From: Pigmentiphaga sp. NML080357
Lineage (GTDB): Bacteria; Pseudomonadota; Gammaproteobacteria; Burkholderiales; Burkholderiaceae_B
Length of the DNA stretch: 64,000 nt
NCBI RefSeq assembly: GCF_002188465.1
Contig: NZ_NINW01000048.1
Location: 62,001 to 126,000 of the forward strand
Reading direction: 5' to 3'
The translations under genes and the position numbers were made by a program. The notes beneath the pieces are model-generated. The model saw only the letters and a program-made list of their open reading frames with translations, was not told where the DNA came from and made no database searches. The stretch's first letter is position 1, and every line of letters starts with the position of its first letter. Below, piece by piece: positions 56,724 through 63,633 of this stretch.

Positions 56724-57320
56724 TCAGGAGCGCTTGTCCGCGGCCATATGGCGACGGTTCTCCACGTGCTGGGCGGTATTGCCATCGCCCAGCATGCCAA
56801 GTGCCTCGGTCTTCAGCGCATGAACGCATTGCGCCAGAAAACCATGCACGGCCGACAGCTGTTCGCGCTCGTAGCGGGCGCCGATGTGCGCGACGTCTTC
56901 AGCCACGGCACGCATGTGGCGTTCGATCTCCGCGCATTTTTCGGCCACCGGACGGATGACGACGATGCGCCGGTCCAGCGGGTGCTTGTCGCGTACCACG
57001 AAGCCGGTTGCCTCGAGCCTGTCGATGACGGCGGTCGTCCCGCCCGAGCTGATGCCAGCCAGGCAGGCCAACTGGCCGGTCGTGATGGGCTCGAACTCGA
57101 TGACGAGTTCGAGCGCCTTCACGTCGACCATGCCCAGCCCGAGTCGTTCGGCCAATGCTGTCTGGTACAGCGAGGTGTAGACCGTCAAGCGGCGTCCCAA
57201 CATCGTGACGATGTTGCTCAGCATCTCCTGGCTGTCCTCGTCCCGCTCCTCATGTTCCCGGGGTATCGGCCCGTGGGCCGAATGGCTCGAGGAACTCATT
57301 ACGTTCTCCCAGTGAAGCAT
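56724..57320 (-). CDS. MarR-family transcriptional regulator
   Basis: The 198-residue protein has the MarR winged helix around residues 75-125: ITTGQLACLAGISSGGTTAVIDRLEATGFVVRD (quoted in part), then HPLDRRIVVIRPV as the wing. The start at 57320 follows AAGGAG, which lies in the last codons and stop of the repetitive lipoprotein gene, so the two genes are translated from the same message. A MarR protein as last gene of a cell-surface operon suggests autoregulation by a small ligand; that is inference. Confidence 0.9.
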   Translation of the reverse strand: MLHWENVMSSSSHSAHGPIPREHEERDEDSQEMLSNIVTMLGRRLTVYTSLYQTALAERLGLGMVDVKALELVIEFEPITTGQLACLAGISSGGTTAVIDRLEATGFVVRDKHPLDRRIVVIRPVAEKCAEIERHMRAVAEDVAHIGARYEREQLSAVHGFLAQCVHALKTEALGMLGDGNTAQHVENRRHMAADKRS

Positions 57321-57331
57321 GGCCTCTCCTT

Positions 57332-59617
57332 TCAACGCTTGCCGGCGACGCCGCCGAGCAGGCCTCCCAACAGTCCCGTAACCGGCGAAAGCAGGCCGCC
57401 GTTGCCTTCGCCGCCGCCCAGGCCCGTGCCCTGGCCGACGCCTGCCGTCAGGCTGTTGACGGCGCCCGTGAGGTTGGTCAGGACGTTGCCCACCGGATTG
57501 GTGTTTTCCGGCGTGGCGTGTACCAGGCCGCCGACGCTGGAGACCGTCTGTCCCACACCGTTCAGCAGGCCGCCCACGCCGTTGCCTACGCCCGGCACGT
57601 TGCCGCCCAGGTCCGCGCCCACGCCGCTGATCGTGCTGCCCAGCGAGCCGAGCAGGCCGTTGACGGGTTCACCGAGGCCGGTGGCCGCGCCGAGGGTCTG
57701 GGTGGTGTTCGACACCGTGCCCGCCACGGGACTCACGATGGGATCGAGCGTGGCGCCGACGCCGCCGAGGGTGTCCTTGAGATTGAGCGGAGCCAGGTTG
57801 TCGACGGCTTGTCCCGTGTTGGCGAGGGCCGGTTGGAGGATGGGCTTGCCGTCCGCGCCGATGCCGCCCAGCAGGCCGCCGGCGATGGGGCCGAGGAGCC
57901 CGTCCGAATCCAGCAGGTGAGCGAGGTCGCCGGAGAGGATCGGGGCCAGCAGGCCACCATTCTCGCCGTTGCCGCCGCCGGTGACGCCGTTCAGGATGCC
58001 GGTGACGGGAGCCAGCACGCCGCCCTCGCCGCCAGTGACGCCGTTCAGGATGCCGGTGACGGGAGCCAGCACGCCGCCTTCGCCGCCGGTGACGCCGTTC
58101 AGGATGCCGGTGACGGGAGCCAGCACGCCGCCCTCGCCACCGGTGACGCCGTTCAGGATGCCGGTGACGGGAGCCAGCACGCCGCCTTCGCCGCCAGTGA
58201 CGCCGTTCAGGATGCCGGTGACGGGAGCCAGCACGCCGCCTTCGCCGCCCGTGGCGCCATTCAGCAAGCCGGTGACCGGAGCCAGGATGCCGCCGTCGCC
58301 ACCGGTGACGCCGTTCAGGATGCCGGTGACCGGGGCAAGGATGCCGCCGTCGCCGCCTGTGGCGGCCTTGGCGGAAGAGTCGCCGATGCCGACGGCCAAG
58401 CCGCCTTCGATGGTCAGCCCCAGGCCTTCGGTCAGGCTCTCGACCGAGCCCGTCAGGTTGGTCAGGACGTTGCCGACCGGGTTCTTGTTGGCATCGCTGG
58501 CATGTAGGATGCCGCCCGCGCTGGCGATGGTGTCGCCCAGACCGGAGACCAGGCCGCTGACGCCGGTGCCGGCCACGGGCAGGTTGGAGCCGAGGCTCTC
58601 GCCGAGGTTGGATACCGCGCCGCCTACCGAGGTGAGCAGGTCATTGACCGGCGCGCCCAGGCCCGTCTTGGCGCCGACTTCTTGCGTGACGCCCGTCACC
58701 GTGCCCACGACCGGGCTGACTGCCGGATCGAGGCCGGCGCCCAGTTGACCCAGCGTCTGGCCCAGGCCGAGGTCGACGACGTTGTCCACCGCGTCGCCGG
58801 TATTGGTGAGTGCCGGCTGCAGCACGGGGTTCTGGACCGCGCCGCCTTCGCCCAGGCCATTGAGCAACTGCGAGACCGGGCTCAGCAGCCCATCCTCGCC
58901 GGCCAGCGCGCCGGTCAGGCTGGAGACCGTGCCGGTGGCATTGTGAAGCACCGTGCCCAGCGGATTGGGGTTGTTTTCCGAGGCGTTGACCAGGCCGCCG
59001 ACGCTGGCGACCGTATCGCCCAGGCCCGCGACGACTTCGCCCAGGCCGAGGTTGACCGGCAGGCCCGTGTTGTCGAGGGTTTGGCCGAGGTCCTTCACCG
59101 TGCCGCCGACCGAGGCCAGCAGGTTGTCGACGGGCTCGCCCACGCCGGTCGCAGCGCCGACCTGTTGCGTCAGGCCCGTGACGGTATTGCCCACCGGGAC
59201 GACGATGCCGTCGAGTTTGGTGCCGACGTTGGTCAGCGTACCGGCCAGGCCGACGTCGACGATGTTGTCGCTCGCTTGGCCGACGTTGCCCAGGCTGGGA
59301 GCCAGAATGCCGCTGACAGGCGTGCCGGGGTTGCCGGGATTGCCGGGGTTATTGGGATTGCCCGGATTGTTGGGGTTGCCGGGGTTGTTGGGGTTGCCGG
59401 GGTTGTTGGGATTGTTCGGATCGCCCGGGTTGTTCGGATTGTTGGGGCTGTTCGGATCCCCGGGGTTGCCCGGGTTGCCGGGATTGGTGGGATCGGAACC
59501 GCCGCCGATTCCGGAGGTGATCGCCCCGGAGCCGGAACAACCGGCCAGCGTCGAAAGTGCGAGTACCACGGCTGCGACCAGGACGCGGGGGCCTGGCTTC
59601 GTTTGTTCTTGATGCAT
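57332..59617 (-). CDS. Large repetitive lipoprotein of unknown function
   Basis: The 761-residue protein begins with a lipoprotein signal and the lipobox LAGC (C27). A Pro/Asn/Gly linker of NPG and NPN triplets follows (about residues 42-100). The rest consists of three imperfect copies of a ~160-residue module that opens with (L/I)xPxLxNxGxAxDN and contains GTVTGLTQQVGAATGVGEPV and GGLVNASENNPNPLG (examples from copy 1). Seven 18-residue units of the type GGEGGVLAPVTGILNGVT are inserted between copies 2 and 3 (about residues 421-546). It is nearly free of aromatic residues and cysteines. I do not recognise a characterised family. It lies downstream of an FhaC-like transporter and upstream of a MarR gene, all on one strand, and is probably cell-surface. 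Confidence 0.88.
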   Translation of the reverse strand: MHQEQTKPGPRVLVAAVVLALSTLAGCSGSGAITSGIGGGSDPTNPGNPGNPGDPNSPNNPNNPGDPNNPNNPGNPNNPGNPNNPGNPNNPGNPGNPGTPVSGILAPSLGNVGQASDNIVDVGLAGTLTNVGTKLDGIVVPVGNTVTGLTQQVGAATGVGEPVDNLLASVGGTVKDLGQTLDNTGLPVNLGLGEVVAGLGDTVASVGGLVNASENNPNPLGTVLHNATGTVSSLTGALAGEDGLLSPVSQLLNGLGEGGAVQNPVLQPALTNTGDAVDNVVDLGLGQTLGQLGAGLDPAVSPVVGTVTGVTQEVGAKTGLGAPVNDLLTSVGGAVSNLGESLGSNLPVAGTGVSGLVSGLGDTIASAGGILHASDANKNPVGNVLTNLTGSVESLTEGLGLTIEGGLAVGIGDSSAKAATGGDGGILAPVTGILNGVTGGDGGILAPVTGLLNGATGGEGGVLAPVTGILNGVTGGEGGVLAPVTGILNGVTGGEGGVLAPVTGILNGVTGGEGGVLAPVTGILNGVTGGEGGVLAPVTGILNGVTGGGNGENGGLLAPILSGDLAHLLDSDGLLGPIAGGLLGGIGADGKPILQPALANTGQAVDNLAPLNLKDTLGGVGATLDPIVSPVAGTVSNTTQTLGAATGLGEPVNGLLGSLGSTISGVGADLGGNVPGVGNGVGGLLNGVGQTVSSVGGLVHATPENTNPVGNVLTNLTGAVNSLTAGVGQGTGLGGGEGNGGLLSPVTGLLGGLLGGVAGKR
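57979..58356 (-). repeat. 54-bp tandem repeat, seven units, in the lipoprotein gene
   Basis: Seven in-frame units of 54 bp encode 18 residues each. The five at 57979-58248 are almost identical at the DNA level; the two at 58249-58356 are diverged. Because the unit is a multiple of three, slippage or recombination would change protein length without breaking the frame. Confidence 0.92.
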
Positions 59618-59843
59618 GGTTTTTCCCCTATCGCTGAAGCGGCAAGACTGCCTGCTGCGGCCTATCGAGCAAAACCTGTGCCAATGTGTTGCACATGTTG
59701 CGAGACGAGGGCACGCAGAGCGGCGCGATCACCCGGAAAACCTTGCAAACAGGGGATAAATCGAAAACTCAGGGAATTCGTGCGGCTGAGACGATGCGCC
59801 GAAATCCCTGGGAAGGCGGGGGGCGTAGACCCCGGGAAGCGGG

Positions 59844-59885
59844 GCTTCGTTACGTAGCAACGGGGCCGGTGTTACGTAACGAAGC
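59844..59885. repeat. 13-bp perfect inverted repeat with internal palindrome
   Basis: GCTTCGTTACGTA (59844-59856) and TACGTAACGAAGC (59873-59885) pair perfectly around a 16-base loop. The right arm contains the palindrome GTTACGTAAC. It lies between the stop of the TpsB-like gene (59897) and the lipoprotein start, about 226 bp before the latter. A terminator/processing site or a protein-binding operator are both possible. The remaining part of this 279-bp gap has only the lipoprotein ribosome site, AGGGGAAA. Confidence 0.7.
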
Positions 59886-59896
59886 GGGGGAGGGGA

Positions 59897-61591
59897 TCAG
59901 TCGAAGCGCAACGAATAGTTGGCGTTGAGACGCAGCGGACGGTCGCTGCTATTGACAGGCTTGTCGCCGACAGGCTTGGCGATGTTGACGTCGAACGCAT
60001 AGTGGCGCTGGTCGGTAACCCGCAGACCCAGCGCGACCGAGGTCAGCCTGTCCGTCAGCAGCCTGTAGCGGCTGTCGTTGAGGCTGACGCGCGCGTAGTC
60101 CGCCAGCACATAGGGCGTGACGCTTTGCAGATAGGGCAGGCCCACAGTGAAGCGCCGGTTCAGCTCGATCGATGCGCCATAGCCTTTGTCGCCGCCCAGT
60201 TCGCCCGCGGGATAGCCGCGGCCGAAGCGCGGGCCGCCGAACGTGACCTGCTCCGTGGTCGGAAGGGAATCCGAGCTGTATTGCCCCAGTGCCGCCAGCG
60301 AAATGCCGAACTGATGGGGCAGCACGAAGTTCTGGTTGACCGCCAGCGTATAGCGGGTGAAGTCCAGGTCGTAGCTGCTGTTGGCGCTCTGTTCGGCGCC
60401 GAGTCCGTCCACGCCTTTGTAGATGGCCGCCGTGATGCGGCGCGACTGCTTGTCGCCGGTTTGAGCGTAGGTCAGCTCGCCGCGCATCACGCGCAGGTGA
60501 TTGGTCAGCGCGACCTGGTTGCCGGTGATGCGGCTGCTGTAGGTATCGTTGTTGCGCGAGGCATAGAAACCGGCGGTACCCGTCAACGATTCGCGATTCC
60601 GGAGAAGGAAGGGGTAGTTCACGCTCAGGCCCGCGCGCTGGTTGCGGACCCGCCGGTCGATGTTCTGCGCGTTGAGGCTGTCGTTCTCCGGATTGGCAGC
60701 GTAGCTATAGGCATCGGCGCGGACCGTCATGCCGTCGCTGCCGACCGGCACGGTGACGTTGGCGGCGTAGTACTCGAGATGGTCGCTGCCGCGCGGCACC
60801 GCCGTCGTGACCTGGACTTGCTCGGCCAGCGGCGTGAGGCTGTTGGCGGTCGCCGTCAGCATTGCGTGGACGCCGGTTCCCAGGTTGCCGATGCCCGTGT
60901 CCAGGCGGAACGCCTTGTGGCTGACGTTCAAGACCAGCTCCGTGGAGCCGTCGGCGCGTTTGGGCAGGCTCAATTCGGGTTTGACCGTGACGCCGGCCAC
61001 CGTGGTCATCAGGTTCAGGTAGCGCTCCAGCGTGGCGTTGGTCAGGGGCCGCTCGGCCTCGATGCGCGCGGCGTAGTCGCGAAGCTTGGCAGCTCCGGCG
61101 CCGGCATCGCCTTCGATGCGCGTATTGCCCACATAGCCTTCGACCACCGTTACCTTGACCAGTCCGCCGCTGAAGTCCTGCGACTGGATCAGCGCGAAGG
61201 AAAGCGCATAGCCGGCATCGCGATAGAGCTGCGTGATGGCATTGGAGCGCTGGATGAGGTCGCCGACGGTGATTTCTTTGCCCGCCAGCGGTTCGAGCAG
61301 ATCGATGACTTTCTGGAAGTCGATCGCGGTGACGCCGGACACATCGAACTGCGTGGGCACCAGGCGCTGGGACAGCACCGCCCGCAACGCCTCGTTCTGC
61401 GCGGGCACGGGAACGGCCACCTGCGGCGCGGGGGCGGGGGCGGGAGGGGGAACGGGCGGCAGCGATTCCGCCGGGTTTCCCCGAAGCGGGCTATCCGCCG
61501 ATTGCGCCGCTAAAGGAACCAAGCCCCAGGCCAGCAGAACGGCCAAATAAAGCCTGCGGGATTCGGGTTTACCCGATGAGTGCGAAGTCAT
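59897..61591 (-). CDS. Two-partner secretion transporter, FhaC/ShlB/TpsB family
   Basis: TpsB proteins are outer-membrane beta-barrels that secrete a partner. This product of 564 residues has an export signal (LYLAVLLAWGLVPLAAQSAD), a proline-rich linker, two POTRA domains (VTAIDFQKVIDLLEPLAGK; KVTVVEGYVGNTRIEGD) and a 16-strand barrel ending in NYSLRFD with the C-terminal aromatic. The L6 loop signature is FGGPRFGRGYPAGELGGDKG, including the VRGY-like tip. No haemagglutinin-type TpsA lies next to it; the nearest gene on the same strand is the repetitive lipoprotein. The ATG at 61591 has no strong ribosome site and a TTG at 61621 is an alternative. Confidence 0.92.
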   Translation of the reverse strand: MTSHSSGKPESRRLYLAVLLAWGLVPLAAQSADSPLRGNPAESLPPVPPPAPAPAPQVAVPVPAQNEALRAVLSQRLVPTQFDVSGVTAIDFQKVIDLLEPLAGKEITVGDLIQRSNAITQLYRDAGYALSFALIQSQDFSGGLVKVTVVEGYVGNTRIEGDAGAGAAKLRDYAARIEAERPLTNATLERYLNLMTTVAGVTVKPELSLPKRADGSTELVLNVSHKAFRLDTGIGNLGTGVHAMLTATANSLTPLAEQVQVTTAVPRGSDHLEYYAANVTVPVGSDGMTVRADAYSYAANPENDSLNAQNIDRRVRNQRAGLSVNYPFLLRNRESLTGTAGFYASRNNDTYSSRITGNQVALTNHLRVMRGELTYAQTGDKQSRRITAAIYKGVDGLGAEQSANSSYDLDFTRYTLAVNQNFVLPHQFGISLAALGQYSSDSLPTTEQVTFGGPRFGRGYPAGELGGDKGYGASIELNRRFTVGLPYLQSVTPYVLADYARVSLNDSRYRLLTDRLTSVALGLRVTDQRHYAFDVNIAKPVGDKPVNSSDRPLRLNANYSLRFD

Positions 61592-61893
61592 TGAGGAATA
61601 TGGGCCTGTAAACGTAAACAATCATCAGCTGGCGAAGTGTGCCATATCAAAACGGTCTCAGGATGCCTCGCGATATGGCTCCGAGCCAGTTTTGACGCCA
61701 TTTTTCGCAGTGGGACGTTTGTAGGACGTTACCGGAAGATACTAAAAAACTTTGTTAATAAGCCGGTTTTCGAATGTATCGAATATTCGCAAGGTTGCGA
61801 TTATCTGTCGATTATCGGAAAGGCAAGGCCAGAAAAGCGATTGCCCGGTTCGTGTTTTCATCCGATTAATAGAAATTCTTCGGAAAACGGATA

Positions 61894-61955: not shown

Positions 61956-62753
61956 ATGCAGCCCGGAGATATTCTCCCTCTACGTTTCGACGCCAGCTTG
62001 GTCGCGCTGTCCTTTGTGATTTCGGCATTGGGCGCGTATGTGGCGTTATTGGCTGCCAGCCGTATCCGGACCATGGACGGGCGCGTCCACGCGGGGTACG
62101 TGATCGTCGCCGGCATCGCGCTGGGCGGCGTCGGTATATGGAGCATGCATTTCATCGGCATGCTCGCCCAAGTCATCCCGCTCGGGGTGGCGTACGGACT
62201 CTGGCTCAACCTGCTGAGCCTGGTGGTGGCGGTCGTCTTCGCCGGCGCTGCGCTGTGGTACGTCGGCAGCGCCCGGTTCTCGCTCGACCGCTGCGTGACG
62301 GGGGGCGTGCTGGCCGGATTCGGCGTGGCGGGCATGCATTACGTCGGCATGGGCTCCATGCGCATGGACGCCTTCTTCGACTGGAACGTCGGCCTGGTGC
62401 TGCTGTCGGTGGCGATCGCCGTCGCGGCGGCCACGGCGGCGATCTGGCTGGCCTTCAATCTCACTACCGAACTGCAGCGCGTCGCCGCCGCCGTGGTCAT
62501 GGCGCTGGCCGTCTGCGGCATGCACTACACGGGGGCGGCCGCCGGCACCATCGTCTGCTCGACGCCGCGCGCTTTTACCGGCTGGCAACTGGACGGCAAC
62601 GTGCTGCCTTATGCGGTATTCATGATTTCCATCGTGACGCTGGTCGTCATGCGTATCGAATTGCATCGCAGCTCGGAAGCCGTGCGCGCCAACGCCGCCC
62701 ACCGGGTCGATCACCTGATTTATTCCCGCCAACGGCCGGAAAACCGGAAATAA
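61956..62753 (+). CDS. Stand-alone MHYT-domain membrane sensor
   Basis: The 265-residue protein has seven predicted membrane helices. Its three MHYT-type motifs are IWSMHFIGMLAQV, VAGMHYVGMGSMRM and VCGMHYTGAAAGT, whose His and Met residues are proposed to bind a metal (copper) at the periplasmic face and sense oxygen, CO or NO. MHYT domains are usually fused to GGDEF/EAL, histidine-kinase or HTH output domains. Here the protein stops shortly after the last helix, so the output must be another protein. The flp pilin gene follows 135 bp downstream. Confidence 0.92.
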   Translation: MQPGDILPLRFDASLVALSFVISALGAYVALLAASRIRTMDGRVHAGYVIVAGIALGGVGIWSMHFIGMLAQVIPLGVAYGLWLNLLSLVVAVVFAGAALWYVGSARFSLDRCVTGGVLAGFGVAGMHYVGMGSMRMDAFFDWNVGLVLLSVAIAVAAATAAIWLAFNLTTELQRVAAAVVMALAVCGMHYTGAAAGTIVCSTPRAFTGWQLDGNVLPYAVFMISIVTLVVMRIELHRSSEAVRANAAHRVDHLIYSRQRPENRK

Positions 62754-63093: not shown

Positions 63094-63633
63094 ATGCCCA
63101 GTATCAATTGGTTTTTCATGCTTTTTTGCGGAGCCGTATTTGTATCAGACATGCTGTTTCGCAGAGTCTTCAACTGGCTATTGATATTAGGCATCGCCGT
63201 TAAAACGCTGGCGTTGGCAATGGGGGCCGATGTGCCCGAGGGGTTCGCTCAGCAATGGCAGGCGGCCTTGGGCGGAGCGGCGGCGGGGCTGGTTTTCATG
63301 CTGGCGTTTTATGTATTTCGCGTCATGGGCGCCGGCGATGTGAAGTTTTTCGCGGTGCTAGGACTTTGGCTGGGAGTAGCGCCGTTGGTGCCAATCTGGG
63401 TCGGGGGCGGCGTCTTGGCTGGTATTCATTGTCTGGCCGTAGTGATCGGTCGCAACAATGTGATGGGACAGTGGTGGGCGTTGCAGCGGGTGCCCGTTCA
63501 AGAGGCGGCATGCCGGCTGCCGGGAATACAGAAAGCGGGGAAGTGGGTGTCTGACACGCGTGGAGGGCGGCGGGGTGTTCCCTATGCTGCTTATCTTGCC
63601 GTTGCCGCCGTTGTGGTGGCCCATTGGAATTAA
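63094..63633 (+). CDS. cpaA: Prepilin peptidase TadV/CpaA (A24 family)
   Basis: CpaA cleaves the Flp prepilin leader at the inner membrane. The 179-residue polytopic protein has the two catalytic aspartates in the A24 contexts VSDMLFRRVFN (D19) and VMGAGDVKFF (D82). It lacks the N-methyltransferase domain of PilD, as is normal for tad-locus peptidases. A soluble C-terminal stretch (about residues 125-160) before a final hydrophobic segment is less usual. CpaB follows after 18 bp. Confidence 0.92.
   Translation: MPSINWFFMLFCGAVFVSDMLFRRVFNWLLILGIAVKTLALAMGADVPEGFAQQWQAALGGAAAGLVFMLAFYVFRVMGAGDVKFFAVLGLWLGVAPLVPIWVGGGVLAGIHCLAVVIGRNNVMGQWWALQRVPVQEAACRLPGIQKAGKWVSDTRGGRRGVPYAAYLAVAAVVVAHWN

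Follow-up and report, generated by a model that had tools for sequence, protein, structure and literature searches.

Lipoproteins with the Collagen_mid domain (Pfam PF15984) have been proposed as adhesins in Burkholderia (PMC10224339). One of the two described in Burkholderia cenocepacia (BCAL1523 and BCAL1524, the Bcc-CLPs), BCAL1524, is reported to be surface-exposed, to promote autoaggregation, to be present in outer-membrane vesicles and to be important in Galleria (PMC10303873). In this study, we describe a locus of Pigmentiphaga sp. NML080357 in which a Collagen_mid lipoprotein gene (57332–59617, minus strand) lies beside the gene for a TpsB-type transporter (59897–61621, minus strand). 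Coordinates refer to the window, which is the whole 64,000-nucleotide stretch analyzed (contig NZ_NINW01000048.1, positions 62,001 to 126,000). We consider it probable that this lipoprotein is an outer-membrane adhesin or autoaggregation factor that is delivered to the surface by the adjacent dedicated TpsB, in a manner like two-partner secretion and under sigma-54 control.

Two export systems offer points of comparison. Two-partner secretion (type Vb, with FhaC and CdiB as TpsB proteins) resembles this locus in its POTRA_2 and ShlB barrel transporter and its adjacent cargo gene. Its usual definition calls for a TpsB gene beside the gene for its cargo and for a TpsA cargo with an N-terminal TPS domain. 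The window has the TpsB gene beside a gene whose product would be the cargo, whereas this proposed cargo is a lipoprotein that lacks a TPS domain. The Slam translocon is composed of TPR and a DUF560 barrel. No Slam-type domain was matched by Pfam at E ≤ 1 in the window transporter, which is of the ShlB/POTRA type, and its cargo gives no sign of a TbpB-like relation in the Pfam scan. The likeness to Slam lies in a dedicated outer-membrane pore that takes a lipoprotein to the surface, and the authors of that work describe translocation by Slam as akin to two-partner secretion (PMC9090332). By this analogy, Slam would be the nearest mechanism to the export proposed here.

The Bcc-CLPs share with the window protein the PF15984 lipoprotein character, low-complexity regions and an adjacent Flp pilus locus (PMC10224339, PMC10303873). 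They carry GTS repeats, whereas the window protein has three modules, an array of 18-residue units and an NPG/NPN linker, and the window gene order is TpsB and then lipoprotein. In B. cenocepacia, BCAL1522 (1684863–1686548) is listed as an outer-membrane “heme utilization-related” protein (PMC10224339) and may be the TpsB counterpart, judged by place and length rather than by comparing sequences. The passages of these two papers that were consulted link the lipoproteins with neither sigma-54 nor two-partner secretion. The Collagen_mid family and the idea that its members are adhesins are already known; what is new here is that Collagen_mid is linked with its own TpsB clade and with a sigma-54 element that also precedes a trimeric autotransporter. 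Neither link turned up in a survey of open-licence PubMed Central papers in which no search was aimed at sigma-54 together with Collagen_mid.

Pairing of the lipoprotein with one clade of TpsB transporters

The lipoprotein is a member of Collagen_mid, a known, little-studied bacterial family. It matches PF15984 at 1e-41 with 143.4 bits (curated cut-off 31.1) in three stretches, the best of which spans profile positions 85–197 of 198. A preliminary description, made from the DNA sequence alone, had placed the protein in no recognized family, which is wrong in view of this match and the published phenotypes of its relative BCAL1524. Matches to PF15984 were found in 60 of 200 genomes drawn from the same taxonomic family (59 above the cut-off), 11 of 399 from the order (10 above) and 18 of 398 from the phylum (13 above); Burkholderia, Achromobacter, Bordetella and Cupriavidus are among the genera represented. 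The window protein also has the signal peptide, lipobox and cysteine expected of a lipoprotein. Its signal peptide ends in LSTLAGC, where LAGC is the lipobox, Cys27 becomes the mature N-terminus and Ser occupies position +2.

The gene upstream encodes a protein with matches to POTRA_2 (5e-18) and ShlB (6e-20), and a profile of related transporters can be aligned to CdiB (6wim) and FhaC (4qky) along most of the profile. To measure how often the two genes occur together, we used the 72 genomes in our draws that have a PF15984 match above the cut-off (G538 falls below it and was excluded). A ShlB match lies on the same contig as PF15984 in 70 of these 72, including six genomes from other orders of the same class, with a gap of 507–2289 bp (median 738). 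In one of the two remaining genomes (G571) the Collagen_mid and ShlB genes sit at the ends of two contigs; in the other (G436) Collagen_mid sits on a contig of 3.6 kb and ShlB has no match.

The same pairing emerges when the transporter is the starting point. A transporter-first search in named genomes gave 285 relatives, from which 80 loci were kept, and 77 of these loci contain a Collagen_mid open reading frame (ORF) although they were found by the transporter alone. In two of the three loci without the lipoprotein gene (L159 and L164), the contig ends within 0.5 kb of the transporter. When 151 genomes of the family were searched with the transporter profile (E ≤ 1e-100), 41 had one match each and all 41 were Collagen_mid-positive, a co-occurrence that reads one way, from transporter to Collagen_mid.

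Gene order differs between lineages. TpsB precedes the lipoprotein gene in Alcaligenaceae, and the order is reversed in Burkholderia, Cupriavidus, Ralstonia and Paraburkholderia. Because the pair persists through this change, the pairing outlives rearrangement. One metagenome-assembled genome titled Burkholderiaceae (L163) has the Alcaligenaceae order. A phylogenetic tree places 36 paired transporters in a single group (support 100/100), separate from 17 other TpsB proteins that were hand-picked from the same kinds of genomes and do not include every TpsB there. No TpsB row came from three of the 20 control loci (L105, L121 and L123), and a shortened transporter (L096) was left out. That ORF (L096:4752-5708, G435) is only 319 aa long and perhaps decayed, and its lipoprotein gene is retained. 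The upstream gene encodes a TpsB of one clade that is inherited with the Collagen_mid lipoprotein, and the suggestion in the preliminary description of a dedicated system with an outer-membrane transporter is supported by these counts.

Lipid anchoring is also common among the relatives. Among 121 domain ORFs in the 80 named loci, 113 show the lipobox pattern. The other eight comprise one that reads LHGC by eye (L152), two Alcaligenes ORFs with plain signal peptides and five that are apparently truncated, antisense or mis-started. In Alcaligenes, a third, shorter module ORF whose signal peptide has no lipobox follows two lipoprotein genes (L151:13626-14432 and L155:13705-14505). At L090–L092, from another order, Gly/Thr-rich (GGT) linkers replace NPG; the transporter at these loci retains the Arg of the TpsB loop motif described below, and a search for the sigma-54 element gave no match there.

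We searched for a classical cargo in several ways. Pfam gave no match to the TPS domain (PF05860) in the lipoprotein. A first TPS profile, built from six domains, gave no match in the Collagen_mid/TpsB loci and found only three of six held-out controls (missing L108, L116 and L119). Because this version was too weak, the profile was rebuilt from 12 domains, and leave-one-out tests then recovered 12 of 12, all at E ≤ 1e-30. With HMMER filters off, the best value for the rebuilt profile among ORFs of at least 80 aa in 118 Collagen_mid/TpsB loci was E = 0.81. At the scale of whole genomes, the per-genome table lists no PF05860 match in 22 of the 72. The paired transporter is present in 21 of these, and in 18 it is the sole ShlB match (E ≤ 1e-6). 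Since those 18 genomes have a single ShlB transporter and no PF05860, no classical cargo exists there.

The transporters themselves depart from the textbook TpsB motifs, which are a VRGY/F loop and F/GxDxG (PMC5422565). In their place, the clade has [G/A]-x-G-Y and xxDx[A/S]. Just before the loop Arg position, all 104 distinct clade sequences have G or A, and 16 of 17 controls have V or I. At the final Gly of F/GxDxG, all 104 have A or S, and 13 of 17 controls have G. Leu or Met replaces the loop Arg in 80 of the 104. The window transporter has GRGY, with Arg kept, and xxDxA; nine Pigmentiphaga-like and six gammaproteobacterial transporter rows also keep this Arg.

A sigma-54 promoter-like site and an enhancer-like element

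Promoters used by sigma-54 have GG at −24 and GC at −12 together with an upstream activator site. The lipoprotein gene has this arrangement at the level of sequence. A promoter-like site, TGGCACAGGTTTTGC, is located at 59669–59683 on the minus strand and is recognized by its match to the consensus and by conservation. Upstream on the same strand are two conserved paired sites, GTTACGTAAC (59871–59880) and GCTACGTAAC (59849–59858), which together (59849–59880) form a putative enhancer for a sigma-54 activator and belong to a longer inverted repeat at 59844–59885. GTTACGTAAC stands 187 bp upstream of TGGCACAGGTTTTGC, and GCTACGTAAC follows GTTACGTAAC by 22 bp. A simple scan found no sigma-70 promoter before the lipoprotein gene and two before the TpsB gene.

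Conservation was assessed in 143 distinct regions upstream of Collagen_mid lipoprotein genes, a set that is related by descent and so not independent, and that omits the eight domain ORFs without the lipobox pattern and regions shorter than 250 bases. The pattern TGGCA-N6-TTGC occurs in 82 of these regions compared with 2.6 expected. A fuller sigma-54 consensus (at least 11 of 13 positions) is found in 77 regions, compared with 0.3 in shuffled sequences and 1 on the reverse strand. Exact copies of GTTACGTAAC are present in 91 regions, compared with 0.02 in shuffles; both sets of shuffles preserve base content only. The median distance between palindrome and promoter is 164 bp when palindromes with one mismatch are included. 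Judged by these patterns, a sigma-54 promoter with a palindromic enhancer appears to be widespread before the lipoprotein gene in Burkholderiales.

The whole 5.73-Mb genome contains two occurrences of GTTACGTAAC, one at the lipoprotein locus and one at a trimeric autotransporter locus. The second copy precedes a sigma-54 site and a gene whose 1327-aa product has an ESPR domain together with YadA head, stalk and anchor domains. This adhesin gene (L208:7325-11308, G000:C26) is followed by one whose product combines BamE and OmpA domains. Among 268 genomes of the family, the composite element was found at 16 sites in 10 genomes, and a reversed control pattern was found at none. All 16 are correctly oriented, 10 before a Collagen_mid lipoprotein gene and six before a trimeric autotransporter gene. 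Because it precedes genes of both kinds, the composite element looks like the mark of a small adhesin regulon under sigma-54. Our best reading of these sequence patterns is that the lipoprotein and the trimeric autotransporter belong to this regulon, which would depend on RpoN.

GTTACGTAAC by itself is an unsafe marker. It occurs at 25 places in 13 genomes, of which 13 are at Collagen_mid loci by coordinates. Two in a set of 12 of these genomes have no site, and some sites away from Collagen_mid have no sigma-54 site nearby. At the site in G316 (L209), the promoter-like site is weaker and there is no clear gene.

The intergenic inverted repeat is also predicted to form a stable RNA hairpin (−28.3 kcal/mol, z −4.8). 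We rejected the idea that it is a mere terminator, since the conservation of the palindromic halves, the distance between them and the recurrence of the element at a second locus are better explained by protein binding. Between the enhancer-like and promoter-like sites, a block of ∼35 bp (about 59732–59767) is near-invariant in seven of seven Pigmentiphaga-like genomes and might be the site of a bending protein.

Lipoprotein architecture, predicted structure and neighboring genes

The lipoprotein ORF begins with ATG and encodes 761 aa. The preliminary description of a lipid-anchored protein with an NPG/NPN linker, three modules of ∼160 residues and about seven 18-residue units is confirmed by the ORF, the lipobox, Tandem Repeats Finder (TRF) and an alignment of the modules. 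All features given here are on the minus strand. In the translated sequence, a low-complexity [N/D]-P-[G/N] linker of 59 residues (about 41–99; 59321–59497) is followed by module 1 (about 104–258; 58844–59308), which is delimited by the module alignment and predicted by AlphaFold2 to be α-helical. The profile match of module 2 covers residues 265–440 (58298–58825), with its last residues overlapping the array, and the module itself extends from about 265 to 420. Module 3 (about 593–756) has a profile match at 57350–57841 that includes most of the C-terminus, and the protein ends in ...LLGGLLGGVAGKR. Identity to module 1 is 54% for module 2 and 52% for module 3.

Between modules 2 and 3, a 54-bp unit encoding 18 residues (GGEGGVLAPVTGILNGVT) is repeated 7.2 times (57973–58361). 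The array has 91% matches and is far above chance, because its TRF score is 624 and the threshold is 50. By eye, the unit resembles the L-x-P-V-T/S-x-L-L segment that closes modules 1 and 3, which makes “nested repeats” a fair label. Genus relatives examined with the pattern [LIVA]-x-P-V-[TS]-x-[LI]-[LIV] have from 0 to 12 units per protein. The near-absence of aromatic residues that had been remarked on is likewise borne out: Phe, Trp and Tyr are absent from the mature chain, which has four His among 735 residues and 23.9% Gly.

“Collagen” is no more than a name for the window protein, because the third positions of its linker are Gly in 9 of 19 cases and Asn in 8 of 19. A collagen triple helix, which has uninterrupted Gly-X-Y, was rejected on the same count. 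Collagen_mid was the only collagen-named Pfam model to match the lipoprotein at E ≤ 1, and no collagen-repeat model did so. A protein of B. gladioli is listed with both PF15984 and the true collagen repeat PF01391 (PMC12724388).

Other candidate relationships were discarded. Several solved structures matched in sequence, among them inulosucrase in the linker (2.7e-5) and reovirus sigma-1 in module 3 (0.0049); these and the weaker matches look composition-driven. An NCBIfam match to an IgA-binding protein (19.4 bits with a cut-off of 1700) was taken as a proline-rich chance match. A phage origin was set aside as well, since the phage collection gave no match.

AlphaFold2, supplied with 72 module sequences, models a single module as six helices (mean predicted local distance difference test score [pLDDT] 69, predicted template modeling score 0.53), so with moderate confidence the Collagen_mid module is predicted to be all-α. 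For the C-terminal half, the 18-aa array is modeled as a β-solenoid (block pLDDT 63–75) and module 3 as helical with low confidence. We do not trust the β-solenoid, because AlphaFold2 is reported to produce β-solenoids from perfect repeats of random sequence (PMC11795689). Comparison of both models with solved structures gave nothing at E ≤ 0.001 (best values 0.21 and 0.24), and for this reason no fold is claimed. The amyloid-like structure envisaged in the preliminary description is unsupported, and amyloid or β structure was rejected given modules predicted to be helical and a suspected artefact in the array.

The genetic setting to which that description had pointed consists of the outer-membrane transporter upstream and a MarR-family regulator directly downstream (56724–57335, minus strand, by Pfam). 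The transporter part stands, given its conserved pairing, and the MarR part does not. A MarR relative is present in 34 of 80 named loci for which flanks were examined, and we rejected MarR as a core member of the system and regard it as a lineage neighbor. Divergent from the TpsB gene is a gene for a 265-aa membrane protein that is MHYT-domain-like by eye (61956–62753), with a relative in 32 of the 80 loci. Past the TpsB gene on the opposite strand is a Tad/Flp pilus operon (63094–63633, and L204:2595-9725) that encodes a prepilin peptidase, RcpC/CpaB, a secretin, a TadZ-like protein (below the cut-off), an ATPase and T2SSF; a relative of the prepilin peptidase occurs in the examined flanks of 34 of 80 paired loci. 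The lipoprotein pair of B. cenocepacia likewise adjoins an flp operon (PMC10224339).

A possible export route and its alternatives

In the mechanism we propose, RpoN (sigma-54) would start transcription at 59669–59683 with a putative activator bound at the upstream GTTACGTAAC sites, and the same regulatory element precedes the trimeric autotransporter adhesin elsewhere in genomes of the genus. The lipoprotein would be exported by Sec, lipidated at Cys27 and sorted to the outer membrane by Lol, as Ser at +2 suggests. The unfolded, glycine-rich chain could then thread the TpsB barrel. Once outside, the protein would be anchored by its lipid and long flexible linker, which would hold the predicted helical modules and the 18-aa array of variable copy number clear of the membrane, where they may mediate cell–cell or cell–surface contact and so adhesion or aggregation.

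Several observations weigh against this interpretation. Deletion of BCAL1524 left biofilm unchanged under the conditions tested (PMC10303873). The two Alcaligenes module ORFs noted above have a signal peptide without a lipobox. Sixteen of 104 distinct clade sequences retain the loop Arg, compared with 16 of 17 controls; because the residue is mostly Leu or Met, the transporter clade may differ from FhaC in how it works. Long branches among the control TpsB proteins drew a warning from the tree program. One Pandoraea transporter (L156) has no lipoprotein gene in 9.97 kb, with the contig ending 1.3 kb beyond. Neither the exact palindrome nor the promoter pattern was found at the six gammaproteobacterial loci outside the order, one of which has a palindrome with one mismatch. 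Finally, four of the 72 genomes (G042, G316, G286 and G191) carry Collagen_mid at a total of eight places that lack an adjacent TpsB; these paralogs could use the transporter in trans, or none.

The last of these points lends some weight to a different explanation, in which the lipoprotein faces the periplasm or reaches the surface by a general route (BAM or spontaneous flipping) and the TpsB is merely co-regulated and exports something encoded elsewhere. That 50 of the 72 genomes also carry TPS-domain proteins somewhere is consistent with this view. This explanation is harder to reconcile with the 22 genomes that lack a TPS-domain match, 21 of which have the paired transporter and 18 no other ShlB match. 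It also sits poorly with a transporter clade separate from the other TpsB proteins tested, with the 41 transporter-bearing genomes, all Collagen_mid-positive, among 151, and with the presence of BCAL1524 in outer-membrane vesicles (PMC10303873). Overall, we judge this explanation unlikely. Less plausible still is that the same export pair serves a surface coat or shielding layer, for protection or spacing, instead of an adhesin. A coat would suit the low-complexity composition, in which charged residues are few and aromatic ones absent, and the varying number of array copies among relatives, whereas the published autoaggregation by BCAL1524 (PMC10303873), the promoter element common to a trimeric autotransporter adhesin and the adjacent Tad/Flp pilus genes all favor adhesion.

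We give very little credence to the protein being an amyloid-like or fibrous (collagen-like) matrix component that polymerizes outside the cell. Its repeats, its V/L/G/T-rich chain without Phe, Trp or Tyr and the β-solenoid modeled for its array might suggest such a protein. Against this, the modules are predicted to be helical and the solenoid is of a type reported as an AlphaFold2 artefact for perfect repeats (PMC11795689); the linker is not Gly-X-Y, no Pfam collagen repeat matches at E ≤ 1 and no solved fold is similar at E ≤ 0.001.

Surface delivery of an adhesive lipoprotein by its own TpsB thus remains our preferred reading. Somewhat more cautiously, we lean toward the broader view that two-partner secretion has a separate branch at these loci, with a TpsB clade dedicated to the export of surface lipoproteins without TPS domains in Burkholderiales and some gammaproteobacterial relatives. 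In Burkholderiales, these lipoproteins would be co-activated with other adhesins by sigma-54 and a GTTACGTAAC-binding activator.

Slam is one of the few systems for which the crossing of the outer membrane by lipoproteins is understood. Should a TpsB indeed move a lipoprotein that lacks a TPS domain, the substrate rule for type Vb secretion would be wider, and the Collagen_mid family would gain both a mechanism and a regulator. The conserved enhancer-like element would provide a direct handle on the activator and on further target genes.

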